Shown here: positions 270 through 30,914 of the stretch, piece after piece | Numbering within the stretch: the first letter of the stretch is position 1 | Layout: every line of letters begins with the position of its first letter | Virus record (IMG/VR): IMGVR_UViG_3300010401_000032 | Coordinates: 90,145 to 154,144 of that record | DNA length: 64,000 bases | Reading direction: 5' to 3' (one strand) | Source of the DNA: a virus | The notes under the pieces: generated by a model | What the model saw: the letters and a program-made list of their open reading frames with translations, nothing else | What the model was told of the DNA's origin: nothing | The model's database searches: none | Position numbers and translations under genes: made by a program

Positions 270-1289
270 TCAATAAATAAATTCGTCCGCTCGTTTGCTG
301 TATGCCGGGTCCGGGGACTGTAAATGATAATCGTGTACACACATTTTATCTACCAATGTTTCAAAATCACATTCAGACTTCCATCCTAATGTTTTTTGTG
401 CCTTGCTTGAATCTCCTAATAGGATTTCAACGTCTTTTGGACGCATAAAAATAGGGTTAAATTTATAAACCTTATCCTTATCGAGATTAAACCACGTGCA
501 ACACGCTTCAAAGAAACTTGTCACTGAATGGGTCTTACCTGTCGCAATAACAAAATCGTCTGGTGTATCGTTTTGCAACATCATATGCATCGCTTTTACA
601 TAGTCGCCGGCATAACCCCAGTCTCGACTAGCTGTTATATTTCCAAGCTCTATATGCTCTTGAAGGCCCCACTTAATACGTGCAAGACTGGTAGTAATCT
701 TACGGGTGACGAATTCTTCGCCACGCAAAGGACTTTCGTGATTGAAGAGAATACCAACGGTCGCAAACATGTTATATGATCTGCGATATATCTGAGTCAT
801 ATGATGCCCATACATCTTTGATGCCGCGTATGGCGACTCTGGATTCATAGGAGAGTCTTCATTTAGAATAGCAACCTTACCATTAATAATTGGGTTGCCA
901 AACTGTTCGCTGGAGCCGGCCTGATAAAACTTACAGTCTGGTTTAATTTGACGAATTGCTTCTAAACAATTAAGAACGCCGAAACCGGTAATTTTGGAAG
1001 TAGTCTCGGGATATTGCCAAGATAACGCAACGTGAGACTGTGCGGCTAAATTATAGAATTCAGCAGGTTGAAATTTCTTAACGGTATTTTGTATACTTGA
1101 AAGATCCGTTACGTCGCCATCAACCAAGTGAAAGTTGGGACTTCCCATAAGAGTGCGAAGCCTTGAAAGGTTAGAAGTAGAGGTGCGACGGCGAACCCCG
1201 ACAACTCTATAATCCAATGAGAGAAGATGTTTACTTAAGTAGTAGCCGTCCTGGCCACTGATTCCCGTGATGATAACCGTCTTATTCAT
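270..1289 (-). CDS. gmd: GDP-mannose 4,6-dehydratase
   Basis: Converts GDP-D-mannose to GDP-4-keto-6-deoxy-D-mannose, the first committed step to GDP-L-fucose and other 6-deoxyhexoses. The 339-residue protein is full length for this short-chain dehydrogenase family. The N-terminus has the nucleotide-binding GISGQDG motif (residues 9-15). The family signature SSEQFG lies near residue 126, the catalytic Y154-x3-K158 is present (YAASK), and NHESPLRGEEFVTRKI matches the GDP-mannose dehydratase loop. The start ATG overlaps the stop of the upstream GDP-fucose synthase gene by 4 bases, so the two steps of one pathway are translated together. Family assignment is firm; the pathway role is inferred from the pairing. 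Confidence 0.95.
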   Translation of the reverse strand: MNKTVIITGISGQDGYYLSKHLLSLDYRVVGVRRRTSTSNLSRLRTLMGSPNFHLVDGDVTDLSSIQNTVKKFQPAEFYNLAAQSHVALSWQYPETTSKITGFGVLNCLEAIRQIKPDCKFYQAGSSEQFGNPIINGKVAILNEDSPMNPESPYAASKMYGHHMTQIYRRSYNMFATVGILFNHESPLRGEEFVTRKITTSLARIKWGLQEHIELGNITASRDWGYAGDYVKAMHMMLQNDTPDDFVIATGKTHSVTSFFEACCTWFNLDKDKVYKFNPIFMRPKDVEILLGDSSKAQKTLGWKSECDFETLVDKMCVHDYHLQSPDPAYSKRADEFIY

Positions 1290-2248
1290 GCTTGATTCCT
1301 ATACCAGTTTATTGTTCTTCTAATTGCTTCCTCAACCGATACCTGCGGTTCCCATTTGAGAACTTCTTTTGCTCTAGATATATCTAATGCTCTACGTGGT
1401 TGGCCATCTGGCTTGGTCGAATCCCACACGATATCAGAATTATAATTACCAATCCTTTTGATCATTTCCGCCAAGCTTTTAATAGTTATTTCTTGACCGC
1501 ACCCTAAGTTAATGGGTTCTGGCGAAACATTTTTTTCTATAGCAATCGCTATAGCCCTAGCACAATCACCCGCGTACAAGAAGTCGCGAGAGGCTGATCC
1601 GGTGCCCCATAAGGTTACAAACGTATTGTATTCGTAACTATCCTCATCTGTTAAACTAAGTTTTTGATCACGTCTAGATTGTTCAAATTTATTAATCAGT
1701 GCGGGTATAACATGTGACTTATCGGCCTCGAAATGATCGTGTTCGCCGACCATATTGGTTGGAATGAGATTAACTACATTAAGACCGTATTGTTTACTAT
1801 ATTCTATTCCAAGCTTCACTAGTGTTCTTTTGGCAATACCATAACCACTATTGGTCATCTCTGGCATGCCATCAAATAGTTCGCTTTCAATAAAGGGAAT
1901 CGTCTTGGGCGTGTGCGGATAGGAGCACGTCGTACCGAGCATAATGAATTTTTTAACCTTTAGGTCTTTGGCAGCCTCAAGAATATTCATGCCCATTTGA
2001 AGATTTTGATAGCCGAGCTTGCCCTGATTATTTTGATTAAATCCTATTCCGCCAACCACGCCCGCAAGATGAATAATAACATCGGGACCCCAAGCATAAT
2101 ATCGTGCTTCAATACCACACGGAGTATCATTTAATAAATCTAATGCACGAGAATTTGGAACATATAATTCGTGGTCGGTATTCTCTTCTAAATACCTTAC
2201 GAGATGATGACCTAAAAATCCGTAGCCGCCCGTTATAAGAATTTTCAT
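1286..2248 (-). CDS. fcl: GDP-L-fucose synthase (epimerase/reductase)
   Basis: Epimerises and reduces GDP-4-keto-6-deoxymannose to GDP-L-fucose with NADPH. The 320-residue extended short-chain dehydrogenase has the GGYGFLG nucleotide-binding loop (residues 7-13) and the catalytic Y136-x3-K140 pair (YGIAK). Residues HVIPAL include H179, at the same number as the catalytic His of E. coli Fcl. WGTGSASRDFLY matches the substrate-binding WGSGxxxREFL segment of the family. It overlaps both neighbours by 4 bases and precedes gmd in the transcript. The closest alternative is another GDP-sugar epimerase/reductase, but the combined motifs favour Fcl. Confidence 0.92.
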   Translation of the reverse strand: MKILITGGYGFLGHHLVRYLEENTDHELYVPNSRALDLLNDTPCGIEARYYAWGPDVIIHLAGVVGGIGFNQNNQGKLGYQNLQMGMNILEAAKDLKVKKFIMLGTTCSYPHTPKTIPFIESELFDGMPEMTNSGYGIAKRTLVKLGIEYSKQYGLNVVNLIPTNMVGEHDHFEADKSHVIPALINKFEQSRRDQKLSLTDEDSYEYNTFVTLWGTGSASRDFLYAGDCARAIAIAIEKNVSPEPINLGCGQEITIKSLAEMIKRIGNYNSDIVWDSTKPDGQPRRALDISRAKEVLKWEPQVSVEEAIRRTINWYRNQA

Positions 2249-2760
2249 TCCTTTAATCCAATTCCTCTTACGATGCAGGGTCGCTTGGAATGTTGGCCGC
2301 CAACACCCTCATACATCAATACTTTAAAGCCAGCATCCTCAAGAAGCTGTCTAATACATTCTGGCGTGAAACGCCAATAGTCTCCCGGATAGTTATGTAT
2401 CTCGAAATCAAATACGGTTGTTAAATAAAATAGCCCTCCGGGCTTTGTAACGCGGAAGGCTTCTTTGATAACTTCTCGTGGCCAGTCAACATGTTCTAAG
2501 CAATCAGTGCTTATAATAACATGAAAGCTGTTATCGGTAAACGGCATCTGCTTGGCGTCAGATACTACGTCAACGCCGGGGCCATTTTGCATATCGAGCC
2601 CAACATACTCTAGCACCTGCGGTGCTATGGTCTTGCGACAAATTATATCTTCTTGTCCAGGGGCAATCCAACTGCCTATTTCTAGCACTCGCATGTCTTT
2701 ATTGAATGGCATTCTTTGAGCGGCTTCATGCTCAATCCATCCTCTATTATGCACATCCAT
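2245..2760 (-). CDS. SAM-dependent methyltransferase (type 11 class I fold)
   Basis: A 171-residue class I methyltransferase. Motif I is VLEIGSW near residues 25-31, followed by YVGLDMQNGPGVD and the STDCLEHVDWP segment typical of Methyltransf_11 proteins. The post-motif KPGGLFYLTT and YPGDYWRFTP segments are common in methyltransferases of bacterial glycan clusters. The usual glycine-rich motif I is degenerate (GSWIAPG). It sits between GDP-fucose synthase and another methyltransferase, so a sugar or glycan hydroxyl is the likely acceptor, but this is inferred from context only. The start overlaps the upstream gene by 14 bases. Confidence 0.8.
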   Translation of the reverse strand: MDVHNRGWIEHEAAQRMPFNKDMRVLEIGSWIAPGQEDIICRKTIAPQVLEYVGLDMQNGPGVDVVSDAKQMPFTDNSFHVIISTDCLEHVDWPREVIKEAFRVTKPGGLFYLTTVFDFEIHNYPGDYWRFTPECIRQLLEDAGFKVLMYEGVGGQHSKRPCIVRGIGLKE

Positions 2761-3334
2761 TAAGAAACTCCTCTACGGTAATTACGTTCATGATCTCGTC
2801 GCGATGACGCTTAAAAATGTCCCATGTCCATCCTTCAACTGGGGCAATAAACTTCTGTTCCCACGTAGTGTCATCGCGTCTTATGACCCCACAGCCCCAA
2901 TCAGTATCTATCGTAAACATCTTTAAATCATGTCGCCACGATCTAAGACTTGCGAACGCCTTCCAACAGTCGCCAGTCCAAGGCTGACCGGAAAGCCCCT
3001 CTCTGAGTTGATGCCACTCCTCCGTAGGAAGCATATCGTGACATACTATTATGCCCTGTTCATTAAGAAATGTCAATGAATTAGTGATATCTTTTTGAAC
3101 TTGTTCTGCTAAATGTAGACCATCAATAAAGATTAAGTCATATTTTTGCTTACAATGATTAGCGAAGAACTCATCGGAGGTCATAGTATAATCGCCGCAC
3201 CCATTGGGGTCTACGCCGTGTTTAATAGGCACGTTAATCTGATTAAGAGTTTCGCGACCCAAGACCCCTATCTCAAGATAAGATTTAAAGTCGTATTTAT
3301 CGATAAGATATTTAATTATATCATAACGTTGCAT
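2747..3334 (-). CDS. Class I SAM methyltransferase (Methyltransf_24-like)
   Basis: The 195-residue protein starts with a short helix, then YLEIGVLGRETL (motif I), an acidic HGVDPNG strand, YDLIFIDGLH near residue 85 and IIVCHDMLPT. This combination of FIDGLH and a later HDM is typical of Methyltransf_24 proteins, which often O-methylate sugars. Upstream and downstream neighbours are a GT2 glycosyltransferase and another methyltransferase. The junction with the GT2 gene is TAATG with one shared base. The substrate is not evident from sequence. The small-molecule O-methyltransferase role is an inference from family and context. Confidence 0.8.
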   Translation of the reverse strand: MQRYDIIKYLIDKYDFKSYLEIGVLGRETLNQINVPIKHGVDPNGCGDYTMTSDEFFANHCKQKYDLIFIDGLHLAEQVQKDITNSLTFLNEQGIIVCHDMLPTEEWHQLREGLSGQPWTGDCWKAFASLRSWRHDLKMFTIDTDWGCGVIRRDDTTWEQKFIAPVEGWTWDIFKRHRDEIMNVITVEEFLNGCA

Positions 3335-4164
3335 TAGTAGCCTACATCCTGTAAGTAAGGAAGATAAATATTAGATTCGTGAAAGTGTCGCCAATTCTGG
3401 TAAACGTTATTATTTAAAGCAGCAGGATTATACAATGAATTCCAATCCACGTAATACCATTTCTGATTCCACATAGATCTTAATGTATTATGGTCGGCTT
3501 GAAGATAGCCATCATAGGCGTGGTGGATAGATCCATTTTTGGAAGTCATATTATGATAGTGGCGACAACGAACGTCGTGACTCACGGCCGCGTAACCTCC
3601 ATGAATATATGCTCTCAATGCGAAGTCAAGATTTTCGTATTGTGCTTTCCATCGTTCGTCAAAGTAGCCAATTTTATCGAACGTTGTCTTCGGCCAAAAT
3701 TGTATGGTTAGTTCCTGGGCAATACATTTAGTTATTCCATTGTCAGCATAAGATTCTTTTTGATATTCTATATCAGATATATCGGACATTGGACAGACTT
3801 GATATATATCTTGATTATTATCTAGGCATTTTAGTAATTCATCATCTAATCCATGTTCAAATAAAGTATCAGAGGTAACAAGCGACACAAACTTGCCGCG
3901 TGCCACGTGAGCTAGTAGATTAATACCGCGACTTATGCCTATATTATTACGCAGTGTAATTGATTGAAAACCAAATTTTCTAGCGAGTGATTCCGTGAGC
4001 ACGCTTTGTTTTTCTGGGCCACCCTGATCTATCAAATATACTTCGGACTTTAACGTGCTATTCTTATGAAGATATAGAGATTCAACGCAGTTCTTATAAT
4101 GCTCCTCAGCAACGGGATCATTACCAGGATTATAATTTAATACGCCGAATGTAATGTCTATCAT
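3334..4164 (-). CDS. Glycosyltransferase, GT2-like (GT-A fold)
   Basis: The 276-residue protein opens with a GT-A nucleotide-binding half: DITFGVLNYN, then EVYLIDQGG, NNIGISRGIN and GKFVSLVTSDTLF. The last segment sits where GT2 enzymes keep the metal-binding DxD; here it reads TSDT, so the motif is weakened. Later segments (FDERWKAQYENLDFALRAYIHG) match the acceptor half of GT2 proteins, in which an ExxDF-like stretch carries the catalytic base. It probably transfers a sugar from a nucleotide donor in the glycan pathway; donor and acceptor are unknown. Start and stop overlap neighbours by 4 bases and 1 base. Confidence 0.82.
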   Translation of the reverse strand: MIDITFGVLNYNPGNDPVAEEHYKNCVESLYLHKNSTLKSEVYLIDQGGPEKQSVLTESLARKFGFQSITLRNNIGISRGINLLAHVARGKFVSLVTSDTLFEHGLDDELLKCLDNNQDIYQVCPMSDISDIEYQKESYADNGITKCIAQELTIQFWPKTTFDKIGYFDERWKAQYENLDFALRAYIHGGYAAVSHDVRCRHYHNMTSKNGSIHHAYDGYLQADHNTLRSMWNQKWYYVDWNSLYNPAALNNNVYQNWRHFHESNIYLPYLQDVGY

Positions 4165-4793
4165 TTTATTAACCTGACTATCGTATCATTCGCCGCCGCT
4201 CCTGGCGTGCGAATATACTCAAGTTGAATTTGACAATTTAAAGTGCTTAAAAATGAAAAGAGCTTACTGTGCGAGTACGTATTCCAAAAGTAGGTGCAGC
4301 CGTTCTCGTCTGGCTCCGACTCTTTAATAATGTCCTCGGGAGAATCCGATAGATCTACGAAGAAAACTAGGATAGCTTCTTTTGCTGCGACCCTGAATAC
4401 TTCTTTAATCGCCGTCTCGTAGCCCTCGCCAAGATGTTCTAAAATATGTCTGGCGATAACTACGTCGAACGCATTGTCTATAAATGGTATTTCTTGGATG
4501 CGACCCTCTCGTAAAGAAATGCTGTCGCCATACAGGCTGCGAGCATGAGCCAAAAAGTTCTTTGTTCGATCTAGTCCCGTGTATTTGCAGCGTGCTCCAA
4601 AATTTCTAAACACTTCATAGTTGACGCAAGTGCCACATGCAACATCCAATACTGTAGTATTAGGATCATTGAAGCCATGAATTAAAGCAGCAAGTCTTTG
4701 GCGACCTAAGTTATCTGTACCGGTTCTGTGATTACGCAGAAAGGAAGCTATGTGCTCCGGAGTAAAAAAGTCGTGATTATTTATTTCTGGCAT
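4161..4793 (-). CDS. SAM-dependent methyltransferase
   Basis: A 210-residue class I methyltransferase with a clean motif I (VLDVACGTCVNY), motif II (YTGLDRTKNF), the IPFIDNAFDVVIARHILEHL segment typical of Methyltransf_11 proteins, and a following helix-strand unit ending in AILVFFVD. It lies between a GT2 enzyme and another methyltransferase and overlaps both (4 and 13 bases). Likely to methylate a sugar precursor or the finished glycan, but the substrate cannot be read from sequence. Confidence 0.82.
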   Translation of the reverse strand: MPEINNHDFFTPEHIASFLRNHRTGTDNLGRQRLAALIHGFNDPNTTVLDVACGTCVNYEVFRNFGARCKYTGLDRTKNFLAHARSLYGDSISLREGRIQEIPFIDNAFDVVIARHILEHLGEGYETAIKEVFRVAAKEAILVFFVDLSDSPEDIIKESEPDENGCTYFWNTYSHSKLFSFLSTLNCQIQLEYIRTPGAAANDTIVRLIK

Positions 4794-5326
4794 GTGACGT
4801 GCATTTCCAAATTAGATCTATCTACAAATGCTTTTGGTATACCATCTAAAAATTCAATATTTTGAAATCCCACTAATTTTAATAGCTTATTAATAACGCT
4901 CTTGTCTGCTATTAATTGATGTTGGCCTGCTGAACATAACCAGTCAGAGTAATTCGCGAATGGTCCATTTGCACCATCGGCTCTAGCCCATTGAGGAAAA
5001 TTATAATAAAGCCAAACAATCTTTTCAAAGTCTGGTAGCTTTAGCTCAAGCTTGCCGCCCGGCTTTAGGACTCTTCGCCATTCGTTCAATGCATCAGTAG
5101 CAGTCTTAGGATTGAGTGGATTAGAGAGATGAGGTTCGTATGCATTTCCAGCCCTAAAATGTTCTAGTATATGCGATGCATAAATCTCATCGACGCTATT
5201 GTCTTCAAATGGAAGTGCTGATACGTCGGCCTTTAAATCGGCAGATGGATGATCAAAGTCTACGTTAATATAGCCGGGCATATTGTCGCCATGACTGGCA
5301 AGATTAAGTTTAATAAACGTCGCCAT
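4781..5326 (-). CDS. Predicted SAM-dependent methyltransferase (COG4627-like)
   Basis: The 181-residue protein begins ATFIKLNLASHGDNMPGYINVD, continues with ALPFEDNSVDEIYASHILEHF, and has WRRVLKPGGKLELKLPDFE. This matches a group of short predicted methyltransferases common in glycan and capsule clusters in which motif I is LNLASG-like. I chose the ATG at 5326; a TTG two codons upstream is possible but less likely. The start overlaps the end of the upstream gene by 17 bases. Several enzymes of this group have no proven activity, so the catalytic role is inferred. Confidence 0.75.
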   Translation of the reverse strand: MATFIKLNLASHGDNMPGYINVDFDHPSADLKADVSALPFEDNSVDEIYASHILEHFRAGNAYEPHLSNPLNPKTATDALNEWRRVLKPGGKLELKLPDFEKIVWLYYNFPQWARADGANGPFANYSDWLCSAGQHQLIADKSVINKLLKLVGFQNIEFLDGIPKAFVDRSNLEMHVTCQK

Positions 5327-5567
5327 TTTCAATCACTTTCTTATCCTCATAGGTAGCAACCGCACGCCTGTAGAATTCTAATTTAGCACATTCTAATGTG
5401 CCGATAATAGTATTATAACCTATATAATTTTCTTCTGTATTTCTCAAATATTTAAGACACAGACTTGTAATCACATAGTTGAGATCGCCAGGACTCTCGA
5501 CGTGCTGAAATACGTCCTGAATATATGGATCGACATCTTTGCGTAATTTTTGTTTAATATAGGGCAT
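5310..5567 (-). CDS. Small conserved phage protein (DUF6899-like)
   Basis: An 85-residue protein. The pattern MPYIKQKLRK at the start, GDLNYVITSLCLKYL, IGTLECAKLEFYRR and YEDKKVIENGDVY at the end recalls the DUF6899 family of small phage and metagenomic proteins, whose function is unknown. This is recognition from memory, not a search. It overlaps the upstream glycosyltransferase by one base and the downstream methyltransferase by 17. Because relatives occur outside glycan loci, it may not take part in sugar modification. Confidence 0.75.
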   Translation of the reverse strand: MPYIKQKLRKDVDPYIQDVFQHVESPGDLNYVITSLCLKYLRNTEENYIGYNTIIGTLECAKLEFYRRAVATYEDKKVIENGDVY

Positions 5568-6532
5568 TATATAATTCCTACTTCCTTAAAAATATGTTCA
5601 AATCTATTCGACCATTGATGGTCTTTGATCATGCGAGCATGACCGGCGGCAGCGATTTTTTCTCGCTCGTCAGAATTAGCGAGATAATACTTAGTTTTAT
5701 CAATTAATTCCTGTACCGTTCTGGCAATAACAATTTCTTTATCTTCAATAAAGTATGAATCTAGATCGTCTGCCGGCGTACTGATTTGAAGACCCTGCAC
5801 CTGCGGAATCTCAAAGTGCCTTCCTTTAATTTGAGGCATTGTTCCATGATGCCATGGATTAGATAGATTAAGATTAACCTTGGATGTGTTGAATACGTCT
5901 ATGATTTCTTTGAAGTCTGTCTTGTATCCGTGCCAGTTTTTATACCCGTCCCAATAATTACCGAAGAGGTCTATCGATATCCCCGCTTCCATCATGGCAT
6001 CTATGACTTCGCTTCTAAGGAATTTGCCGTTTGGCATCTGTCCGTGCTTTTGTCCAACGAAGGATGCATCATACTTATACGATTCCCTATTGGGCTTGTA
6101 AAGCGGAGAACCGGCCCACTGAGACTTAATGACCTTCATTCCGCTTTGTTGATACCATGGAATGGTTGCTGAGTGCGTAGTCACGAAATGAGACACGCGA
6201 TCTTTACGAGGAAGAATCCAGTGCTGGAAACGCCATGAGCTATCGCAGTCCCATTGAATGACAGGAACGCCCGCCCTTAGAGCCAGCTTCGCAATACCTT
6301 CCGGTAAATCTAATGTTTCATTGAAAGCTACGTTAAAGATTGCGTCATAATTAAAATCAGCAATAAACATATCAAGAGATCGTGGATCTGCGTCTGGGTA
6401 ATAGTAACAATCTTCTAGAGAATTTTGTTTACAATATTCGGCAAACCCCGCTTCAATATTCATGTGCTCATACGAAAAGCCTTCTTCCGGCTTTCCGTAA
6501 TTATATAGTAAGCCTACGTATAATATTTTCAT
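5567..6532 (-). CDS. CgeB-like glycosyltransferase
   Basis: The 321-residue protein resembles CgeB/YkvP-type GT-B glycosyltransferases. The N-terminal half has MKILYVGLLYNYG, PVIQWDCDSSWRF and HFVTTHSATIPWYQQSG. The C-terminal half has DASFVGQKHG, ISIDLFGNYWDG and the KVNLNLSNPW...KGRHFEIPQVQGLQIS region, which is the conserved signature of these enzymes (R-x-FE-x-P near the donor site), followed by AGHARMIKDHQWSNRF. It probably uses a nucleotide sugar in the cytoplasm. A second CgeB-like gene lies at 7442-8362, so the operon carries a pair. Confidence 0.82.
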   Translation of the reverse strand: MKILYVGLLYNYGKPEEGFSYEHMNIEAGFAEYCKQNSLEDCYYYPDADPRSLDMFIADFNYDAIFNVAFNETLDLPEGIAKLALRAGVPVIQWDCDSSWRFQHWILPRKDRVSHFVTTHSATIPWYQQSGMKVIKSQWAGSPLYKPNRESYKYDASFVGQKHGQMPNGKFLRSEVIDAMMEAGISIDLFGNYWDGYKNWHGYKTDFKEIIDVFNTSKVNLNLSNPWHHGTMPQIKGRHFEIPQVQGLQISTPADDLDSYFIEDKEIVIARTVQELIDKTKYYLANSDEREKIAAAGHARMIKDHQWSNRFEHIFKEVGII

Positions 6533-6768
6533 GATACTTGTGTTAAATAATCAATCTTCCAGGATATACATTCTGTCAGAATGCCGTCTTCTTCCGCGAT
6601 CCATTCAGACGCTAACATTTCAATACGTCTATTGGCAAAATCCGCTGCCTTAGCCCTGGTTTCAAAGGGGCCAAAAAATACTGTTTCATCTTTCCATGCT
6701 GTATTATCAGAACGATCTTTTAGATTTTCCTCTATAAGAACATACATATCAACTTGTTTCTTTGTCAT
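6529..6768 (-). CDS. Small hypothetical protein
   Basis: A 79-residue acidic protein with no recognised family. The middle reads FFGPFETRAKAADFANRRI, similar to the GPF-x-T-xx-A-xx-A pattern seen in many small phage proteins that pair a strand with a helix. It overlaps the neighbouring glycosyltransferase genes by 4 bases at both ends, which supports it as a real coding unit. No function is proposed. Confidence 0.7.
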   Translation of the reverse strand: MTKKQVDMYVLIEENLKDRSDNTAWKDETVFFGPFETRAKAADFANRRIEMLASEWIAEEDGILTECISWKIDYLTQVS

Positions 6769-7430: not shown

Positions 7431-7441
7431 TTTCAATTTCT

Positions 7442-8544: not shown

Positions 8545-8545
8545 A

Positions 8546-10512: not shown

Positions 10513-10535
10513 CTCGTATGTGCCAGAACCGATGT

Positions 10536-11161: not shown

Positions 11162-12290
11162 AGCACTTCTCTAATTGTTTGTTTACAATACTGGCTTCGA
11201 AATATCTCATGGCTCTTCGCCGGGCAGTACGTCCAAAATAGTCGCGTAGTCTCACGCGATCTGTTTCGTCTTCATTGGCAAACTCTTCGTTAAGAACTAA
11301 TTGCTCAAGAATATCTCTGTATGCAACCCAATCGCCCACTGGCACAACAAAGCCGGCGTCGCCAATAATCTCTGATTGACCGTTATAGATTCCGCTTTCG
11401 TGAGATACTACTGGTAGTCCATGCATCATGGCCTCTTGTATATTACAAGGACAACACTCTCCATCATGACGTGCGTGAGCATAAATGTCAAGTCCCATAT
11501 AGAACTTAGATAAAGCTTGATCGCTTATAATGGGTTCGCCGAATCTTATGTTTTGTATTCCAAGCTTACTGGCACAATCGATCCAGTTCTGACAAGGATT
11601 AATTACTATATACCAAACATTAGGATATCTCTTCTCTACCTCCGCGAAAGCTTTTAATGAGATAGGGTCAAAGTTATCTGGACGGCCAACGCGACCAATG
11701 AGAATTGCATCGTGCGGTATCTTAAACTTGTTCAGTAATTCTTCTCGACATAAATCCTTGTTATCAATAGTCATATCTAGAACTGGTTGTTCTATTGGAT
11801 TATAGATTACTGGACCGACTTCGTTGCCACTAGAAACGGCTCGCTCTTTAATATAATCTGATATATAAATATGTAGGTCTATTTGACTCTCTGGCGTCGT
11901 ATCGTTATAACCAAAGATGTTAGTTTCGACCCACTTGGCTCTTGGAGCCATGTAACGGAATGCTGGCCACTCGTTGTAACCGCTTCTGTGAACATGCACA
12001 ATCTGCGGATCGATTTGCTTTAAAACATCAAATAGATTGTCCTTCTCTGGAAGGTACGGAGATTGGCGACCCTTCTTGCCGGGTTCCCACTGATAGGGAA
12101 TCACCCGATCATTTCCAAGCCAAGAGCGTACAACGTCAAGGCGTTCGTTTGCTGGATCATTATCTCTATAGACAATATATGGATCAAACCTGTCGCTTCG
12201 CGACAGGTACTTGGCGAATAGTTGTGCCGTGCGGTCTGTGCCGCTATAACCAACCGTCTTGGAATGATGTACTACTCGTATTTTGTTCAT
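11142..12290 (-). CDS. Glycosyltransferase family 4 (GT-B fold)
   Basis: A 382-residue GT4-like enzyme. N-terminal half: KIRVVHHSKTVGYSGTDRTA, a GG-type loop variant, and PQIVHVHRSGYNEWP. C-terminal half: DAILIGRVGRPDNFDP opens the donor domain, DIYAHARHDGECC and NIQEAMMHGLPVVSHESG form the GT4 donor-site signature (E-x7-E region, here degenerate at the first position). It is a paralog of the gene at 12474-13580, with shared VGRPDN and DIY-HAR-DGE blocks. Starts by ATGA overlap with the small gene upstream. Confidence 0.88.
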   Translation of the reverse strand: MNKIRVVHHSKTVGYSGTDRTAQLFAKYLSRSDRFDPYIVYRDNDPANERLDVVRSWLGNDRVIPYQWEPGKKGRQSPYLPEKDNLFDVLKQIDPQIVHVHRSGYNEWPAFRYMAPRAKWVETNIFGYNDTTPESQIDLHIYISDYIKERAVSSGNEVGPVIYNPIEQPVLDMTIDNKDLCREELLNKFKIPHDAILIGRVGRPDNFDPISLKAFAEVEKRYPNVWYIVINPCQNWIDCASKLGIQNIRFGEPIISDQALSKFYMGLDIYAHARHDGECCPCNIQEAMMHGLPVVSHESGIYNGQSEIIGDAGFVVPVGDWVAYRDILEQLVLNEEFANEDETDRVRLRDYFGRTARRRAMRYFEASIVNKQLEKCYDWVLS

Positions 12291-12481
12291 ATTTCTGGTA
12301 AGGCTTCTACTTCTTCGTCCGTCATCTCTATAACTTCAATAGTAAAAGAATCACCCACGTAGGGATCATCTTCGTACCAATCGCGGATACAGCTAAATAG
12401 ACCGTCTAAGGTATCGGCATTTAATACGCTCCAATGATCGCCATCTACTAATTCTGGACTGATCCTAAAATACTTAGCCAT
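12287..12481 (-). CDS. Small acidic hypothetical protein
   Basis: A 64-residue acidic protein (pI clearly low: many Asp and Glu) beginning MAKYFRISPELVDGDHWS and ending TDEEVEALPEI. I start at the ATG at 12481, which overlaps the upstream GT4 stop by 8 bases; a TTG at 12508 would overlap more. The gene sits between two paralogous GT4 enzymes. Not recognised. Confidence 0.65.
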   Translation of the reverse strand: MAKYFRISPELVDGDHWSVLNADTLDGLFSCIRDWYEDDPYVGDSFTIEVIEMTDEEVEALPEI

Positions 12482-13580
12482 TGATAACCTCTTCGTAAAT
12501 CTTTTCAAGTTTCTTGACGCAAACGCTTGCTTCGAATTCGGCTTCCGCTTTATGTCTGCCAGCCTCGCCCATTCTGAATCTCATGCCCTGATCATCAATC
12601 AACATCTTTAAAGCTTCTGCATATTCATCGGGATGATTATTAACCACCCAACCTGTCTCGGCAGTATTCACTAAAGTAGTTTGTGCTTGAAATACGCCCA
12701 TTCCTGGAACGCTTGCTCTGGCATAATGCGTAATCACGGGTTTACCATGGATCATAGCCTCGGCAATATTAACGCCGAATGTTTCGCCATCCGCTCTAGC
12801 ATGAGTATATATATCTAAACTATTATAGAAAGTGCTTAAAATTAAAGGATTAGTTGTGGGTTCGACAACGTGAAATGGTATTTCGTACTTGACTAAATCG
12901 TCGATCATGTTACTCGGCGGTGCAACTACGATGAAACGAATATCGTACCCCTGTAGTCGAAGTAGACGAACGGCGTCAACGCTGACCGAATTATATATAC
13001 CATTGTCTGGTCGCCCGCATCTCCCTACTACAGTTGCCCCTTCTTCGTGCCATTGGCTAGCAATTGGAAGAACTGAATCCGCGTATGGCATTTCAACTGG
13101 ATTATTAACAAAGTCAAATCTTGGGTTTGCACCCCTCAAATACATTCTAAGCGAATGATTCATAAGCCATTCACTCATAAAGAGATCGCGGTCTATCGCA
13201 GAATTAGGATCTATAAAGCCAAATACATTAGTAATAACAAAACGAGGAACGGTGATATGTATATTGGGACGCGGGAATTCCGCGTAGCCCGATTGATATA
13301 CGTGCAAAATATCTGGCTTAAAATTATCTATTACCTGCTGTAGTTCGTCGCCATTAACAGAACTTCTATTTTCCCAAGAATTAACTTCGAAAAGCTTGCC
13401 GCCAGAAACACGGGCGGCTTTTTGAAATTCTTCAAGCCTTGGATGTTCGCCGGTCTTTTCAAAGACCACGGCTACTTCAAACTTATCGCTATTCGCGTGT
13501 TCGAAAAATAACTGACACGTCTTCTCCGTACCGCCCAAACCAAGATGACGAAGATAATGCAGAACTTTAATTTTTCTCAT
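12474..13580 (-). CDS. Glycosyltransferase family 4 (GT-B fold), paralog
   Basis: A 368-residue GT4-like enzyme. RKIKVLHYLRHLGLGGTEKT has the GT4 loop LGGTE that positions the acceptor, DILHVYQSGYAEFP follows. The donor half opens with TVVGRCGRPDNGIYN and has DIYTHARADGETFGVNIAEA with the E-x7-E pair (GETFGVNIAE), then AMIHGKPVITHYA. It shares about the same plan and several blocks with the GT4 at 11142-12290, pointing to duplication within the operon and possibly sequential addition of related sugars. Confidence 0.9.
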   Translation of the reverse strand: MRKIKVLHYLRHLGLGGTEKTCQLFFEHANSDKFEVAVVFEKTGEHPRLEEFQKAARVSGGKLFEVNSWENRSSVNGDELQQVIDNFKPDILHVYQSGYAEFPRPNIHITVPRFVITNVFGFIDPNSAIDRDLFMSEWLMNHSLRMYLRGANPRFDFVNNPVEMPYADSVLPIASQWHEEGATVVGRCGRPDNGIYNSVSVDAVRLLRLQGYDIRFIVVAPPSNMIDDLVKYEIPFHVVEPTTNPLILSTFYNSLDIYTHARADGETFGVNIAEAMIHGKPVITHYARASVPGMGVFQAQTTLVNTAETGWVVNNHPDEYAEALKMLIDDQGMRFRMGEAGRHKAEAEFEASVCVKKLEKIYEEVING

Positions 13581-13899
13581 GAAGTTGTCTTCTAAGATAG
13601 CTAACTTCTGCCTCTAGTTCACGAATGCGTTGCTTAGAGGCTCGTGCATGAGCGGATAATATACAAGGATTTATATGTTCGCCAATTGATTGTGTATCAA
13701 CTTCATGATCAAGAGCTTTGGCACGAGATTCCCACTCTAAAGCTTTCTGTTTCTCTAGATGAATCTGAAATTCTAAATGATAGATGACGCTCTCTTGACT
13801 GGCAACTTGCTTGTGAAGATCGGTAACAAGTTCCAATAACTCGTTAGCAACATAACGATACCATTTATATCGCCAACGTGTAAGTTTCTTATAGGCCAC
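13567..13899 (-). CDS. Coiled-coil protein
   Basis: A 110-residue protein. The N-terminus is basic and aromatic (MAYKKLTRWRYKWYRY), followed by heptad-rich segments: NELLELVTDLHKQVASQE, EFQIHLEKQKALEWES and a second coiled coil RIRELEAEVSYLRRQL near the end. Overlaps the upstream GT2 by 11 bases and the downstream GT4 by 14. A scaffold or pairing role in the glycan complex is conceivable; the family is not recognised. Confidence 0.7.
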   Translation of the reverse strand: MAYKKLTRWRYKWYRYVANELLELVTDLHKQVASQESVIYHLEFQIHLEKQKALEWESRAKALDHEVDTQSIGEHINPCILSAHARASKQRIRELEAEVSYLRRQLHEKN

Positions 13900-14704
13900 T
13901 AATCCACTCTTCGCGTTGCGGTAGGTTGTTGAAGTCTCTGAATTCTTTAGCGTGCTTCAAATGACTGTCAAAGTTATGACCAAAAAACTCGGAAATGGCA
14001 GCGTATGTTTCGTAGTTATTGGCTCGTTTGTTACTATTTTCAATGGAATCGGGTCTTTGTGTATAGACCGTAAGCTGCTCCGGAATCGATAGACCGTGAT
14101 AGCCGTTGCTCATAAAGTATAACCAGAGCCAATAATCGAACGCTGACTTGTATTCGGCGGCTCTCTTATCCATTAGCTGCCAATCAAGATCGCGTTTAAA
14201 TTCTGTATTGTTGAGCCACGCAACCTGTGGTCCGCCCCAGCATTCTCGTGTCATAAGCTCAAAGTCGAACTTAGGTTTTAAGCCACGTCCAATCAGTTGT
14301 TTCTTTTCATTAATGACCGTCATGCCGCCATAACAGAATCCTATTTTGGGACCGTTATATAGTGGACTCTGAATGAACTTTAAATACTTGTGTACAATTT
14401 CTGTGGTGCGAGGATCGTGAAAATCATCGGTATTCGAGTTCATAACAAACTCGCCCTTGGCACATCTCCATGCACGCAACCAAGACGCTCCGTACGGCTC
14501 GCGTTTCGGCCAATAGACATAATTGACGCGACTATCTATCTCTGCCCATTTCTGGGCTATCGGTCCATCAGCACCGGGCGAATCGGGATTAACAACAACG
14601 ATTTCAAAATCTGGATCGGTTTGTCTTTCAAGCAAGTCAGCAATATGCTCATCCAAGAAATGAGCAGAATCATAGGTTGATACAAGATAAGAAAGCTTAG
14701 GCAT
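13889..14704 (-). CDS. Glycosyltransferase family 2
   Basis: A 271-residue GT2 enzyme. The N-terminal half reads PKLSYLVSTYDSAHFLDE, LLERQTDPDFEIVVVN, GASWLRAWRCAKGEFVMNSNTDDFHDP, in which NTDD occupies the DxD site. The acceptor half contains KSAFDYWLWLYFMSNGYHG, consistent with the ExDxW-type region of GT2. No transmembrane segment is seen, so it works in the cytoplasm on a soluble or membrane-bound acceptor. Overlaps its neighbours by 8 and 11 bases. Confidence 0.87.
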   Translation of the reverse strand: MPKLSYLVSTYDSAHFLDEHIADLLERQTDPDFEIVVVNPDSPGADGPIAQKWAEIDSRVNYVYWPKREPYGASWLRAWRCAKGEFVMNSNTDDFHDPRTTEIVHKYLKFIQSPLYNGPKIGFCYGGMTVINEKKQLIGRGLKPKFDFELMTRECWGGPQVAWLNNTEFKRDLDWQLMDKRAAEYKSAFDYWLWLYFMSNGYHGLSIPEQLTVYTQRPDSIENSNKRANNYETYAAISEFFGHNFDSHLKHAKEFRDFNNLPQREEWISGL

Positions 14705-15713
14705 TTACGACCATTCCGTTATGATAATGACTCATGTGCGGTTGAGACTGTCGGGACATGCAGAGCCAAATGTTTCCCCATTCTTCATTTTTCAAAACCT
14801 TAGAATAGAATTTATCGTCTTCCCAACCAAGACTGGCCGCCGTAGGATTTTCACAATGTATAAATCTAGGATGCTGTTTCATGATTTCTGGATGCTCACC
14901 GCTAAAAGCTAAAACTGGCTCGGTATCTGCGAACCAATCTTTGACTTTCTGATCAAACTTTTTATTTGCGGCCCCATGGCCCGCAAGTTCTTTTTCGTAG
15001 TACTCTTGCTTAGTTTTCATTATTTCATTCATATTCGAACGTGCATATCCATAATGATATATGAAAAAATTATTCAACATAACTCTACGATGTTGATAGT
15101 GCGGTGAAAAATAAGTACAGTGTCCAGCCGGATCAGTTGCAACAGGATGACTATTATATTTCATGCCTCGAACGTACTTAAATATACGTTGATGCTGAGG
15201 TTGCCATTCAGGACCCGGCACAGCTACGTGCCAAAAATCTCTATAGAAATGTAAAAAATTAGGGACAAACTCGCATGCCGCAGGATTAAGATCTATAGCT
15301 TTTCGTAAGCGACGAATATCCTCAGGGCGATAAAATTCATCTGCGTCATTAATAATGATCCAATCGCCAGGAAGAGAAATATCCAGAAATGTTTGTTTCA
15401 TTTCCTCAAGATTCTTCCATGGTTTCCTAATAGATATCAATGTTAGTTTTTGATCTGGATCGTGATTAGCTTTAAAATCATTGATGATTTCGATTGTACG
15501 ATCTGTCGAATGTCCATCTGGCGTTGAATTAGGACGATTCTGCACCGCCCCTTCGATCACTATAATCCTATCTACTTCATTATAGATGGACGCAAGCGTT
15601 AAGCCAATGAATTCTTCTTCGTTGTGGGCTTGAATACACTGAACTAGACGGGCAGGTTTATTAACCCGTTCGGCTATACACTTCATTTGGCTTTCGTAAT
15701 AGATTTGATTCAT
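14697..15713 (-). CDS. Glycosyltransferase family 2 (large form)
   Basis: A 338-residue GT2-related enzyme. ARLVQCIQAHNEEEFIGLTL, EVDRIIVIEGA, TDRTIEIINDF and DWIIINDADEFYRPED (DADE as DxD) follow the WaaE-like or SPBc2-like GT2 layout. The rest is a His- and Tyr-rich acceptor domain (YFSPHYQHRRVMLNNFF, IYHYGYARSN). It overlaps the preceding GT4 by 4 bases and the following GT2 by 8 bases. Donor unknown. Confidence 0.85.
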   Translation of the reverse strand: MNQIYYESQMKCIAERVNKPARLVQCIQAHNEEEFIGLTLASIYNEVDRIIVIEGAVQNRPNSTPDGHSTDRTIEIINDFKANHDPDQKLTLISIRKPWKNLEEMKQTFLDISLPGDWIIINDADEFYRPEDIRRLRKAIDLNPAACEFVPNFLHFYRDFWHVAVPGPEWQPQHQRIFKYVRGMKYNSHPVATDPAGHCTYFSPHYQHRRVMLNNFFIYHYGYARSNMNEIMKTKQEYYEKELAGHGAANKKFDQKVKDWFADTEPVLAFSGEHPEIMKQHPRFIHCENPTAASLGWEDDKFYSKVLKNEEWGNIWLCMSRQSQPHMSHYHNGMVVNA

Positions 15714-16969
15714 AGTGATTCCTCAATGCTCGCCGCTACGGCACCTTCTTTTTTATCGTCAAAACGTACTACGCCAGTAGCTTTCCATGATTCATGAGCA
15801 GAGATCAACTGTTCTGTTACTTTTGATGCAATAGTTCTATAATCAAACTTGTTACCAACCATCATGGCATTTTGTTGTTTTTGTAATACGGCTTGCCACT
15901 CTTTTAGATTAGCCTCGTTTAACTGACCTTCGGCAGCACCTTTCTTTAAAAGGTAGAATCTCTGCATAACCATTGACATCTCGGCGACGGAAGGTTCAAA
16001 ACACTGTTCTAAGCCAGTGAATAATCCTGGATCTCCGTGGGGCATGTCGTAAAAGAAAGACGCACAGCCGTTATAAATTAATGCGTTTTGCGTGCTAACG
16101 AAATCTTGCAAGCCGGTTTTATCATGTGAAATAACCGTCTTACCGTGGGCCAGGGCATCGAATACCGGTATGCCCCAACCTTCTGATCTACTTGAACAAA
16201 CGTACGCATCACCTCTAGCATGTAAGCTTTGAATATCTTCGTCTGACATAGTTCCTATCAATGGAAGAACCGGCGGGAACTTGTTTGTCGGTATACGGGT
16301 TTTCATTTTGACATTTTCGATATAGCTCTTAACGTGAGTTAAATCGTTTTGTCTGTCCTGCATACTAATGTAGGTCTTTAAAACTAAGAGAACGTCGTCG
16401 GGCACACTAGAGAATGCCGCGTAATATGCCCGCAGCAAAAGATCTATTCCCTTTTTCGTGCTAAGTTGACAAATATTATAGAATATTGTTCTATTACCAG
16501 CATTCTTAATTTCAAATGGCTGGTACTTCTTTTTGTAAATATCATTATCGCATGGCGGTGCCGCAACAAGAATGGGGCGTCTTATGCCAGATCTCAATAA
16601 AGTTTCAGCATTAAAACGTGACGGCACAATGAGAAAGTCAAAACTCTGTGCTGTTTGTGCCCAAGACGGCTGTAATCTGTCCGTTTCAAAGAATGTATAC
16701 AGTCCATTAACGACACCTGGAATTGGAACCGCTTCCACATTACAGGTGGTCATTTGAGTTACAATATCAACATTCAAAAGATCTTTTTGTAGATGCGGAG
16801 CCATCCATTCCGGTATATCAAAAGATTGTCCGTTGTCAAGACGATCGTACTTTAATGGACGAGCTACCACGTCTAATCTTTCGTCTTGCTTTAGCATGCG
16901 TAAAAAATTACGCGATACTGTTGCAAATCCGGAGAAATCAAATAACGGACCTGTAAATAGAAGTTTCAT
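15710..16969 (-). CDS. Glycosyltransferase family 4
   Basis: A 419-residue GT-B enzyme. The N-terminal half begins KLLFTGPLFDFSGFATVSRN, the loop that replaces the GG motif. The donor half has RTIFYNICQLSTKKGIDLLL, then YVCSSRSEGWGIPVFDALAHGKTVIS, where the E-x7-E pair appears as E-x7-D. A C-terminal extension rich in Lys and Ala (AEGQLNEANLKEWQAVLQKQ) follows. It lies one base after the stop of the larger GT4 gene and may act on the product of it. Confidence 0.87.
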   Translation of the reverse strand: MKLLFTGPLFDFSGFATVSRNFLRMLKQDERLDVVARPLKYDRLDNGQSFDIPEWMAPHLQKDLLNVDIVTQMTTCNVEAVPIPGVVNGLYTFFETDRLQPSWAQTAQSFDFLIVPSRFNAETLLRSGIRRPILVAAPPCDNDIYKKKYQPFEIKNAGNRTIFYNICQLSTKKGIDLLLRAYYAAFSSVPDDVLLVLKTYISMQDRQNDLTHVKSYIENVKMKTRIPTNKFPPVLPLIGTMSDEDIQSLHARGDAYVCSSRSEGWGIPVFDALAHGKTVISHDKTGLQDFVSTQNALIYNGCASFFYDMPHGDPGLFTGLEQCFEPSVAEMSMVMQRFYLLKKGAAEGQLNEANLKEWQAVLQKQQNAMMVGNKFDYRTIASKVTEQLISAHESWKATGVVRFDDKKEGAVAASIEESL

Positions 16970-16970
16970 A

Positions 16971-18773
16971 TTAGACGAACTCTTGTTGATTCTGTGCTTG
17001 TGATTGTTGTATACCGGCCGCTTGTTTTCTCATTTGATCTCTAATCTTGGAGCCGTCCGACTGTTGATTACCGATGGCAACAAACTGGGCCATAAGCTGC
17101 TCTCGCGTGATCCCCATGCTAAGATGCTCAACCCAAGTTTTTGCACCATTTGGATCTACAGCGGGATATTTCAAAACGTTCAAATATAGCCAATCTACAT
17201 ATTCTTCATTATTAAGATTCGGCGGAATTGGAAGTGCTGCAACTGTATTCACTTCGGAGATTGGACTATCCCACGTCTGAGAACGATCGAGCGGCTGAAC
17301 ATTATCCAATACATATTCCCATTGTTGGAATAATTTATCCCAGTCATAGTTATCGACAACGCATTGATAGGCTTCCTTTGACAGTTCTGAAAGCTTCTCT
17401 TTATTAGAGATCATTTCAAACATCTTGTCTGCCAAATCTTCGATGTCTGGGTGAGCACGCTTGCAACTTGTTTCTGCTTCGTAGTAATAACGACCGACAT
17501 CAATAACATCGCCACCCTTATTGCAGGTGTAGTTATCTTTCGTAATGTCCATTTCTTTAAAGTGATCGTAGTTTGGATAACGGCCCTTCTCACGCATGGC
17601 GGTGTAATCTGTAGCCAGCGTTGGCACTCCGCAAGCTTTCGCCTCTTGTATCGGCATACCATCACCTTCGCATATAGAGCATTGAACATATAAATCCATC
17701 ATGCTATACAGCTTTGCCAATGTTTCTCTATCAAAGCCAATGCTGGTACTGGGCGGCGAAGCATCAATCTTATTGCAGTGCGGACAAGGTAACTTAATTC
17801 TACCTTCTTCTATGGGTTTTTTCCACAGATTCATTGCGTATGTAACAGACGGCTCTTTGCACGAATGACAGTGCATAGATTGTAGAATACTACCTCTAAT
17901 GCCCTTATTATAATACGGCATCCAGTCATGTGTTTCAAGACGCATGATGTGTCTAGGATAATCGTAAGAGTGTACGTTATCTGGCCAAGACGAGTGTATG
18001 AGGAGGGTGGCCTTGTCTACAATCTCATTACCCTTATACTTAGCTTTCATACGAGAAAAACCGTCGATAAGATCTGGATAAAGTTTACGAGATTGATTTC
18101 TCATAACAGTACCAATAACTGTTATTTCTTTATTGAGATTCCAGAAGTCTCTTACTTCTTTTTTATCCATTGGCTTGAAAGTACTAAGGTCTACTCCCGG
18201 TCGCATAGGCTTAGGGAATATCTTCATCTTTCTTTTGCCAGTTGGCAACACCTGACTTTGACGACGCAAAGCGTGAACGCCGTAATCAGAATAAGCCAAA
18301 ACTAAGTTGGCATTTTCATAAGTCTCAATCCACTCTTCCGCTTGTGGTTCTGCGTCCACTGTTGGCATAATAATCCATTTAAACCAAGGGCGGAAAGCGT
18401 TTCTCTCTTCGAATTCCAACATCCAAAAATCTCTAATATCAATAACGATATCGGGCTGAAAATCTAATAGAACGGCATTAAGTTTGTATTCGCCGAATTG
18501 GTTTGTCATTTGTCCGCGAGCACGTGGATGGGGACAGTTCTGCCCGAACACGGACGCTTCCTGTTGATTGGTCGGAAGCACACCATAAAATTTCCAACGA
18601 CCATTTATAAATGATTGAACACGAGGATCGTTTTGATGTGCGTAAGATCCTAACTCTGCAATTTCATATTTGCCGGTTGCAGCAAGCCGTGGTAATAATT
18701 CTCTGTAATATGTCGAGAATCCAGTATTAAGGAAGCTAGCTTCACCTATAAACAGAATGCGTTTTTTGCTCAT
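16971..18773 (-). CDS. GT4 glycosyltransferase with zinc-ribbon insert and DUF4214 tail
   Basis: A 600-residue multidomain protein. Residues 1-190 form the acceptor half (KKRILFIGEASFLNTGFSTY). Residues 200-490 form the donor half with ITVIGTVMRNQSRKLYPDLI and CSICEGDGMPIQEAKACGVP (E369 and E377, the E-x7-E pair). An insert holds two CxxC pairs (C302/C305 and C330/C333), a likely zinc ribbon. Residues about 523-570 (EYVDWLYLNVLKYPAVDP, then GITREQLMAQFV) match the DUF4214 repeat found on secreted and glycan-associated bacterial proteins. The tail is Gln-rich. It is the first gene of the glycan block, ATGA-coupled to the sigma gene, suggesting an early step of assembly. Confidence 0.85.
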   Translation of the reverse strand: MSKKRILFIGEASFLNTGFSTYYRELLPRLAATGKYEIAELGSYAHQNDPRVQSFINGRWKFYGVLPTNQQEASVFGQNCPHPRARGQMTNQFGEYKLNAVLLDFQPDIVIDIRDFWMLEFEERNAFRPWFKWIIMPTVDAEPQAEEWIETYENANLVLAYSDYGVHALRRQSQVLPTGKRKMKIFPKPMRPGVDLSTFKPMDKKEVRDFWNLNKEITVIGTVMRNQSRKLYPDLIDGFSRMKAKYKGNEIVDKATLLIHSSWPDNVHSYDYPRHIMRLETHDWMPYYNKGIRGSILQSMHCHSCKEPSVTYAMNLWKKPIEEGRIKLPCPHCNKIDASPPSTSIGFDRETLAKLYSMMDLYVQCSICEGDGMPIQEAKACGVPTLATDYTAMREKGRYPNYDHFKEMDITKDNYTCNKGGDVIDVGRYYYEAETSCKRAHPDIEDLADKMFEMISNKEKLSELSKEAYQCVVDNYDWDKLFQQWEYVLDNVQPLDRSQTWDSPISEVNTVAALPIPPNLNNEEYVDWLYLNVLKYPAVDPNGAKTWVEHLSMGITREQLMAQFVAIGNQQSDGSKIRDQMRKQAAGIQQSQAQNQQEFV

Positions 18774-30856: not shown

Positions 30857-30914
30857 CTATCCATATGGAACATTAGGTAAATCAGAACTATGGCAAAAAA
30901 CCAATGCTACTAAT

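Follow-up and report, generated by a model that had tools for sequence, protein, structure and literature searches.

A conserved glycosyltransferase cassette with GDP-fucose synthesis genes in a lineage of uncultured tailed bacterial viruses, and its candidate virion targets

Phage glycosyltransferases are usually regarded as isolated cargo genes whose target is unclear. A block of such genes, encoded on the minus strand of the virus record IMGVR_UViG_3300010401_000032 (161 kb), raises the question of whether it is cargo at all, and of what its glycan might be attached to. The block lies at positions 270-18773 of the window, that is, the whole 64,000-nucleotide stretch analyzed here (positions 90,145 to 154,144 of the record). 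An earlier note, made from the letters alone, had read it as an operon with eleven glycosyltransferase-like genes, a complete GDP-fucose branch, four methyltransferases, a GMP reductase and a HAD protein.

Gene content of the cassette

Ten of the eleven claimed glycosyltransferases were assigned by Pfam (four GT2, four GT4 and two of the CgeB/PF13524 type). The remaining one, an orphan DxD protein, had no meaningful Pfam match; its best Foldseek matches included glycogenin, PBCV-1 A064R and LgtC (E 2e-6 to 5e-6), and on its predicted structure it is a glycosyltransferase with a GT-A fold. Domain or fold evidence thus makes glycosyltransferases of all eleven, one of the points on which the earlier note had said that its reading could fail. 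Searching PDB by sequence or profile with the orphan and with the 600-aa GT4 gave nothing useful, and structure search gave matches. The 600-aa GT4 has four invariant Cys, arranged as two CxxC, and is a candidate priming enzyme. Two of the four GT2s have a degenerate DxD (Table 1).

Gene count, families, strand and the 1-14-base overlaps at most junctions agreed with the earlier description, and its four methyltransferases were all recovered by Pfam. Small unknown ORFs lie between the named genes. Its GMP reductase belongs to the IMPDH/GMP reductase family, but the HMM scores (269 bits for the IMPDH model, up to 244 for GMPR models) do not settle GMPR rather than IMPDH. The HAD protein did match PF18143, although below the cut-off and with an orthologue in a single relative. 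A promoter and terminator scan gave little above shuffles.

The orthologue profile of Gmd had GMD 1rpn as its best PDB match (E 3e-119), and that of Fcl had GDP-fucose synthetase 1e6u (E 5e-80). The catalytic residues of both are intact: Y154, K158 and E128 are invariant in the Gmd orthologue alignment, and C108, Y136, K140 and H179 in 16 Fcl sequences. The window proteins score below the NCBIfam equivalog cut-offs (348.8 bits vs 415 for Gmd, 229 vs 500 for Fcl). The enzymology proposed earlier, synthesis of GDP-L-fucose by Gmd and Fcl together with many transferases and methylation, is well supported as a prediction, for Gmd and Fcl by the profiles and conserved residues. The branch begins at GDP-mannose, and no gene supplying GDP-mannose was seen among the cassette genes of the window. 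From these genes, it is reasonable to predict that the phage builds a methylated, fucose-containing glycan.

Table 1. Features of the cassette and of other regions of the window (positions in the window; counts are of relatives with an orthologue)
Feature	Position	Strand	Evidence
Gmd, GDP-mannose 4,6-dehydratase	270..1289	-	PF16363 E 1.8e-109; 14/15
Fcl, GDP-L-fucose synthase	1286..2248	-	NF047922, below cut-off; orthologue-profile match
Methyltransferase, swap zone	2245..2760	-	PF08241 E 2.8e-13; full-length in only 4
Methyltransferase, swap zone	2747..3334	-	PF13578 E 1e-9; 4
GT2, degenerate DxD, swap zone	3334..4164	-	PF00535 E 7.4e-6, over cut-off; orthologue motif VTSD
Methyltransferase, core	4161..4793	-	PF08241 E 3.5e-17; 15/15
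Methyltransferase-like, clade-specific	4781..5332	-	PF08241 E 5.5e-9; 6
DUF6899 small protein	5310..5567	-	PF21840 E 2.5e-28; 1
CgeB-like glycosyltransferase, core	5567..6532	-	PF13524 E 9.6e-26; 14/15
GT2, core, DAD motif	6765..7436	-	PF00535 E 5.3e-22; 15/15
CgeB-like glycosyltransferase, core, fast evolving	7442..8362	-	PF13524 E 9.6e-9; 15/15 at 34-48%
IMPDH/GMP reductase family enzyme	8695..9720	-	PF00478 E 1.5e-98
Orphan glycosyltransferase, predicted GT-A fold, R-D-x-D-S-R motif	9713..10378	-	AlphaFold pLDDT 92.9; Foldseek; 13/15
HAD-like protein, accessory	10536..10904	-	PF18143 E 9e-4; 1/15
GT4, core, E-x7-E	11142..12290	-	PF13692 E 7.5e-10; 15/15
GT4, core, E-x7-E	12474..13580	-	PF00534 E 3.3e-9; 15/15
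GT2, core, degenerate DxD (NTDD)	13889..14704	-	PF00535 E 1.5e-14; 15/15
GT2, core, DAD motif	14697..15713	-	PF00535 E 2.8e-8; 15/15
GT4, core, E-x7-D	15710..16969	-	PF00534 E 9.6e-12; 15/15
GT4, 600 aa, C-terminal DUF4214	16971..18773	-	PF00534 + PF13946; GT-B fold; E-x7-E invariant
Sigma-70-like protein, directly upstream of cassette	18770..19375	-	PF04542 E 5.2e-9
DnaE-type DNA polymerase, fixed upstream neighbour	19612..22917	-	tblastn to phage dnaE genes; 49-72% identity in relatives
Tail/adhesin proteins with most conserved Ser-Gly sites, candidate glycan acceptors	30152..45027	-	SG enrichment and site list
Two structural proteins, 472 and 341 aa	53432..55959	-	12/12 Ser-Gly sites retained by 80% or more of relatives
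Head cement-like protein	59429..59896	-	PF22758 E 7e-4, below cut-off; 2/2 Ser-Gly sites conserved

Conservation across the lineage

The earlier note had proposed looking for the same set in related genomes. The block is kept there: its ordered core was found downstream of dnaE in all 15 relatives whose contigs span the locus (the basis of every count out of 15 given here), with none of the patchy presence that characterizes accessory cyanophage LPS clusters. Finding one set in one order in 15 further genomes puts the co-occurrence of its genes far beyond chance. The genes are also intact and conserved, so the objection that they might be inactive copies fails. Distances among the glycosyltransferases, Gmd and Fcl follow those of the capsid protein (r 0.58-0.91), as is the case for nearly all core genes; the IMPDH/GMP reductase family enzyme tracks them weakly (r 0.31, p 0.057). 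Rather than stray cargo, the cassette of about 15-20 kb belongs to the conserved core of an entire lineage of uncultured tailed bacterial viruses.

One segment, from the core methyltransferase to Fcl, is exchanged between clades. This swap zone contains methyltransferases and a GT2 here, and nucleotidyltransferases, a HAD phosphatase or an aldolase in other clades; part of the methylation is therefore clade-dependent.

The dnaE-linked GT4 gene was also present in 43 far more distant contigs. Among viral contigs, 79 loci were identified when an alignment of the 600-aa GT4 served as the query, where the single sequence found none. Neither megablast of the block nor tblastn with the capsid protein or the 600-aa GT4 gave a match in 50,697 phage records, and thus no cultured relative was found by that route. 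None of the papers listed by our literature search reports this lineage. A contig of 158 kb, provisionally placed by binning in a Hydrogenophaga MAG, carries a sister phage that shares the cassette; with the binning provisional, Hydrogenophaga as host is only a lead.

Candidate targets of the glycan

The cassette might alter LPS or capsule on the surface of the infected host, which could, for instance, prevent superinfection; a role of this kind has been considered for cyanophage LPS clusters. O-antigen loci typically hold GT2, GT4, Gmd and Fcl sets, and the cassette resembles them both in this content and in its layout of a core with a variable centre. Clusters in P-SSM2 and S-SSM7 are also annotated as LPS genes (PMC3037559). 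However, the cassette proteins of the window had no membrane segment (top 19-residue hydropathy 1.40), nor did the hydropathy scan find the membrane-spanning GtrA, GtrB or GtrC of Gtr-type systems there. The cassette therefore lacks a flippase, a polymerase, a ligase and a membrane-bound initiating transferase, although such membrane enzymes could be borrowed from the host. The core is, moreover, co-inherited with the virion rather than patchy, and surface remodelling leaves the Ser-Gly conservation in virion proteins, described below, unexplained. We consider this explanation improbable.

A second alternative is that the transferases hyperglycosylate the bases of the phage DNA, which would evade restriction. 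Hypermodification of DNA by phage glycosyltransferases has been reported (Pyle 2024, as cited in PMC12619734). Even phages that are very distant have the first glycosyltransferase gene close to dnaE, a linkage that would fit a DNA-related role as well. Against this, no thymidylate-synthase-type hydroxymethylase (PF00303) was found in any of 25 records, in a search whose control was positive in 9 of 14 genomes. Tet/JBP-type oxygenases were found in 0 of 25 records, but no control gave a signal in that search, and we do not count it as firm evidence. Eleven glycosyltransferases plus fucose synthesis and methyltransferases would also exceed the needs of known base modification, and we regard a DNA target as very unlikely. 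With neither membrane segments nor a hydroxymethylase, a surface polysaccharide made on a lipid carrier is disfavoured, and so is canonical DNA glycosylation.

Virion proteins carry a different kind of signal. Ser-Gly was the most over-represented dipeptide in tail-region virion proteins in 10 of 10 genomes tested (at 30152..45027 of the window, 2.28x expected and rank 1 of 261). Across virion proteins, conservation of the Ser that precedes Gly is 0.81, compared to 0.51±0.03 in within-gene shuffles. No comparable conservation was seen in T4, in lambda, or in the replication and cassette genes of the lineage itself. Distant phages with the dnaE-linked GT4 showed a weak Ser-Gly excess without significant conservation. 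Ser-Gly could thus be a sugar attachment site, perhaps O-linked; none of the papers listed by our literature search reports a Ser-Gly sequon in phages.

Even if virions are glycosylated, Ser-Gly might be a structural turn motif of the folds of this lineage rather than the acceptor. Ser-Gly followed by hydrophobic residues would be a plausible beta-turn or strand start, Ser-Gly does not occur in the major capsid protein, and lambda, for which no glycosylation is known, has a modest excess (1.62x). Yet the lambda Ser-Gly serines are not specially conserved, and in the lineage the effect is common to unlike virion proteins (cement-like, tail and LamG/PKD adhesin proteins) and absent from non-virion genes. 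A turn motif is a rather unlikely explanation, if a less remote one than the two above. Taken together, the missing membrane segments, the missing canonical hydroxymethyl-base gene and the Ser-Gly signature point to virion proteins as the putative glycan target.

The explanation that we favour, as probable, is virion glycosylation by a soluble system like that of chloroviruses, with fucose in its glycan, which would be the core glycosylation machinery of this tailed-virus lineage. How the glycan is assembled, what it is attached to and by which bond, and what it is for, we infer as follows. Host GDP-mannose would be converted to GDP-L-fucose by Gmd and Fcl, and about ten soluble glycosyltransferases, a set that stays fixed, would assemble a conserved oligosaccharide core in the cytoplasm of the host, with the swap zone altering its decoration clade by clade. 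No lipid carrier would be involved: the glycan would be joined directly to exposed proteins of the virion, in tail, adhesins and head cement, an assignment made because of the Ser-Gly motif; the bond may be an O-linkage to the Ser of [P/A/G/V]-S-G-[V/I/L]. The glycan might act as a shield or a receptor decoy. Points that count against this reading are the major capsid protein without Ser-Gly, the distant phages in which Ser-Gly is not significantly conserved, the degenerate DxD of two GT2s, the scores of Gmd and Fcl under the equivalog cut-offs, and the linkage to dnaE.

Relation to known systems and implications

The chlorovirus PBCV-1 performs autonomous capsid glycosylation with virus-encoded GMD and GMER (PMC5408694). 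Like the cassette, chloroviruses have their own GMD and GMER/Fcl for GDP-fucose, several soluble glycosyltransferases, some common to all members and others variable, and a predicted methyltransferase domain (PMC5408694). By predicted fold, the orphan and the 600-aa GT4 resemble chlorovirus glycosyltransferase structures; profile search with these two found no sequence homology to chlorovirus PDB chains. Chloroviruses, unlike this lineage, infect eukaryotes, encode 6-8 glycosyltransferases against 11 here (PMC5408694), and glycosylate the major capsid protein, whereas the candidates here are Ser-Gly sites of tail and cement proteins.

Mycobacteriophages glycosylate capsid and tail proteins, with glycans reported at C-termini (Freeman 2023, as cited in PMC12619734); those with announced genomes have few glycosyltransferases, such as two in Maravista, and no fucose pathway described for them. 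The earlier note had called the number of transferases together with the fucose branch unusual. The cassette is indeed large, but it is not wholly unprecedented: the cyanophages P-SSM2 and S-SSM7 have large LPS gene clusters (PMC3037559), the available text of PMC10611076 reports GDP-fucose-pathway genes in P-SSM2, and it also reports GDP-mannose dehydratase and GDP-L-fucose genes in the freshwater Dishui Lake phages DSL-LC02 and DSL-LC03. Clusters of the P-SSM2/S-SSM7 type occur in only a few large genomes, where they have been discussed as possible "stuffer DNA" (PMC3037559), whereas here the core is in every locus-spanning relative. The lake phages were read as cyanophages with psbA/psbD, with no comparable glycosyltransferase cassette described in that same text. 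Moraphages are also an uncultured aquatic phage lineage and have four putative glycosyltransferases among their core genes; they differ in having jumbo genomes, and their description does not mention fucose or mannose or explore the acceptor (PMC12619734).

A large glycan-building block including a fucose pathway is thus an inherited core module in every locus-spanning relative, and comparative genomics singles out residues of particular virion proteins as candidate acceptors. Acceptors in other phages can be sought with the same test of Ser-Gly conservation. We put forward tentatively, as a possibility short of an even chance, that the cassette is the bacterial-virus counterpart of chlorovirus autonomous glycosylation: a lineage-wide block of about a dozen soluble transferases with GDP-fucose synthesis and a modular, clade-specific decoration segment, which would O-glycosylate exposed virion proteins at a dedicated, maintained Ser-Gly-[V/I/L] sequon. 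If true, this would give a mass-spectrometry prediction down to the single site and a supply of soluble glycosyltransferases for glycoengineering, and would suggest that complex autonomous virion glycosylation arose in bacterial viruses in parallel to giant algal viruses.

Organization of the sugar block and its enzymes

In the 161,114-base IMG/VR virus record that contains the window (G000:C1:90145-154144), the structural module (30-64 kb) is followed on the minus strand by replication genes, a DnaE-type polymerase, a sigma-70-like protein and the sugar block (18773-270), with overlaps of a few bases between most adjacent genes of the window. Judging from its head and tail genes, the virus is a tailed phage; a domain search also identified a LamG/PKD adhesin and weakly matched a head cement protein. 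The sigma-70-like protein perhaps regulates phage late genes or the operon. The sugar block, the 600-aa GT4 and the capsid protein had no matches in 50,697 phage records, and a close cultured relative is absent from that collection.

Coordinates of features in the window and in related records
Feature	Location	Strand	Remarks
DnaE-type polymerase	19612-22917	-	between replication genes and sigma-70-like protein
Sigma-70-like protein	18770-19375	-	directly upstream of sugar block
1641-aa adhesin	36386-41311		LamG and PKD domains; run of short Gly-rich repeats, SGLIGGYI-type
GT2-like gene outside cassette, same genome	L006:8529-9134	+	
GT2-like gene outside cassette, same genome	L008:7245-8054	-	below cut-off
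dnaE of relative G010	G010:C1:39616-43686		large in-frame insertion, single 1373-aa frame
IMPDH/GMPR of relative G017	L056:9151-10983		enlarged, 610 aa
IMPDH/GMPR of relative G013	L050:10080-11345		enlarged, 421 aa

The earlier note had counted eleven glycosyltransferases (GTs), and the count held: ten have Pfam support (four GT2, four GT4 and two PF13524/CgeB-like), and the eleventh (9713-10378) was recognized by its predicted fold. It gave no meaningful family match; the orthologue alignment showed invariant R89, D90, D92, S93 and R94, a RDxDSR motif conserved across relatives, and yielded a confident AlphaFold model (pLDDT 92.9). The model resembles GT-A enzymes; its top matches, at moderate TM-scores, include glycogenin, the PBCV-1 A064R transferase and LgtC. 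In the 600-aa GT4, four cysteines are invariant and form two CxxC pairs; the protein also has a C-terminal DUF4214 and a GT-B fold whose best structure match is the chlorovirus NY-2A GT 3oy2. Across relatives, all four GT4s conserve E-x7-E or E-x7-D, and the GT2s carry DxD in two cases and a degenerate DxD in the other two. GT2 matches also occur in relatives at places comparable to the two GT2-like genes outside the cassette.

The Gmd orthologue profile matched solved GMDs first (E 3e-119), and that of Fcl matched solved GDP-fucose synthetases first (E 5e-80), with the other listed SDR enzymes far behind. Fcl residues C108, Y136, K140 and H179, the catalytic residues of the enzyme by comparison with E. 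coli GMER, are invariant in 16 sequences. A gene for GDP-mannose synthesis was not seen among those of the window's cassette, so host GDP-mannose would be needed; a mannose-6-phosphate-isomerase-like cupin is present in four relatives.

Inheritance of the cassette

A capsid-protein search retrieved 19 viral loci, those aligned over their length being 67-89% identical to the query. The earlier note had proposed looking for the same gene set in related genomes, and it was present: in all 15 relatives spanning the locus, several GTs and Gmd- or Fcl-type enzymes are encoded downstream of dnaE. The two records that lack Gmd/Fcl are small pieces of 45 and 29 kb, the longer ending inside dnaE. According to orthologue tables and gene order, the core comprises, in order, GT4-600, GT4-419, GT2-338, GT2-271, GT4-368, GT4-382 (numbers are lengths in aa), the orphan GT-A, IMPDH/GMPR, CgeB-306, GT2-223, CgeB-321, methyltransferase-210, Fcl and Gmd; relatives differ from this scheme by a few local rearrangements and losses. 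Clades differ in what lies between methyltransferase-210 and Fcl, an exchanged interval: the window's clade has methyltransferases and a GT2 there, and other clades have sugar nucleotidyltransferases, a HAD phosphatase, a TylF-like methyltransferase or a class II aldolase. The enlarged dnaE and IMPDH/GMPR genes of some relatives possibly contain inteins or other inserts.

Core-gene distances among the genomes correlate with those of the capsid protein (GTs, Gmd and Fcl, r 0.58-0.91; core methyltransferase, 0.46; IMPDH/GMPR, 0.31, p 0.057), and the core was therefore inherited together with the virion. In contrast, LPS clusters are carried only by certain cyanophages with large genomes (PMC3037559). 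When used as the query of a broader search, the GT4-600 alignment retrieved 35 loci at 54-79% identity and a further 44 distant loci (L093-L132, L134-L137) at 29-39%. DnaE matched on the same locus in 43 of these 44, so the dnaE-GT linkage is old; GT4-419, CgeB-321 and Fcl have matches in several of them too. A 158-kb contig (L058; NZ_JAILWB010000012.1, G031:C4) encodes a capsid protein 88% identical and the same sugar cassette, and its MAG binning gives a possible lead to Hydrogenophaga sp. as candidate host.

Ser-Gly in virion proteins

The Ser-Gly (SG) motif was noticed by reading tail proteins, and being derived from the data itself its weight rests on controls rather than on the initial enrichment. 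SG is the top over-represented dipeptide in the structural proteins of the window's genome (157 observed vs 91.5 expected), not in its remaining proteins. Among 261-328 dipeptides of the tail region, it takes the top rank in 10/10 lineage genomes tested (1.96-2.29x, z 6.3-8.5), compared with 1.17x in T4, 1.20x in P-SSM2, 1.62x in lambda and 0.90x in the cassette proteins. The serine is kept at a frequency of 0.81 across relatives, where within-gene serine shuffling gives 0.51 +- 0.03 (123 sites); in tail genes the values are 0.83 for SG serines, 0.39 for other serines and 0.54 for non-Ser residues before Gly. The effect was absent in T4/RB49/RB69 (0.56 vs 0.58), lambda/N15/HK97 (0.51 vs 0.46), the lineage's replication genes (0.37 vs 0.43; few sites) and its cassette genes (0.46 vs 0.48). 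Strong over-representation and conservation in virion proteins extend lineage-wide (window 30152-59896; L138-L146).

Tail, adhesin and cement-like proteins hold most of the 87 well-conserved sites, whose context is [P/A/G/V]-S-G-[V/I/L]; the capsid protein has none, and 5 SG occur in the 1738 aa of the tape-measure-like protein. In G018, a deep relative with a GT/Gmd/Fcl cassette, SG is enriched about 2x in structural stretches, and its conservation is less pronounced (z 2.4). In distant phages that have fewer sugar genes, enrichment is at most 1.7x and SG conservation was not significant. SG is a candidate glycan acceptor in virion proteins, a purely structural meaning being its main rival.

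Proposed scheme and its alternatives

Most likely, host GDP-mannose would be converted to GDP-fucose, one transferase would prime the Ser of SG, the remaining core GTs would extend the glycan, and clade-specific enzymes would decorate or methylate it; beyond enzyme families, these steps are our reconstruction. The 600-aa GT4 is a candidate priming transferase because it comes first in gene order and is retained most widely. Remodelling of the host surface is a less likely alternative, yet conceivable because the phage could borrow host membrane enzymes. Membrane segments are absent from the window's cassette proteins, whose hydropathy over 19 residues peaks at 1.40, and this argues against surface modification of the flippase/polymerase or Gtr type. 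Of the alternatives, DNA glycosylation has the least support; a thymidylate-synthase-type hydroxymethylase was found in 0/25 records with a positive search control, which speaks against canonical glycosylated DNA, and a Tet/JBP search, run without a control, gave 0 matches.

The proposed virion glycosylation resembles that of chlorovirus capsids, which likewise involves soluble GTs, GMD and GMER and a predicted methyltransferase (PMC5408694). Comparison of two phage GTs with solved structures showed similarity to chlorovirus enzymes in fold alone, and we therefore do not claim membership of that system. Taken singly, phage GTs, gmd/fcl genes in phages and glycosylation of virions are already known (PMC3037559, PMC10611076, PMC12619734); new here are the lineage-wide architecture of a core with an exchanged interval and the Ser-Gly signature. 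Were Ser-Gly purely structural, virion glycosylation itself would still stand.
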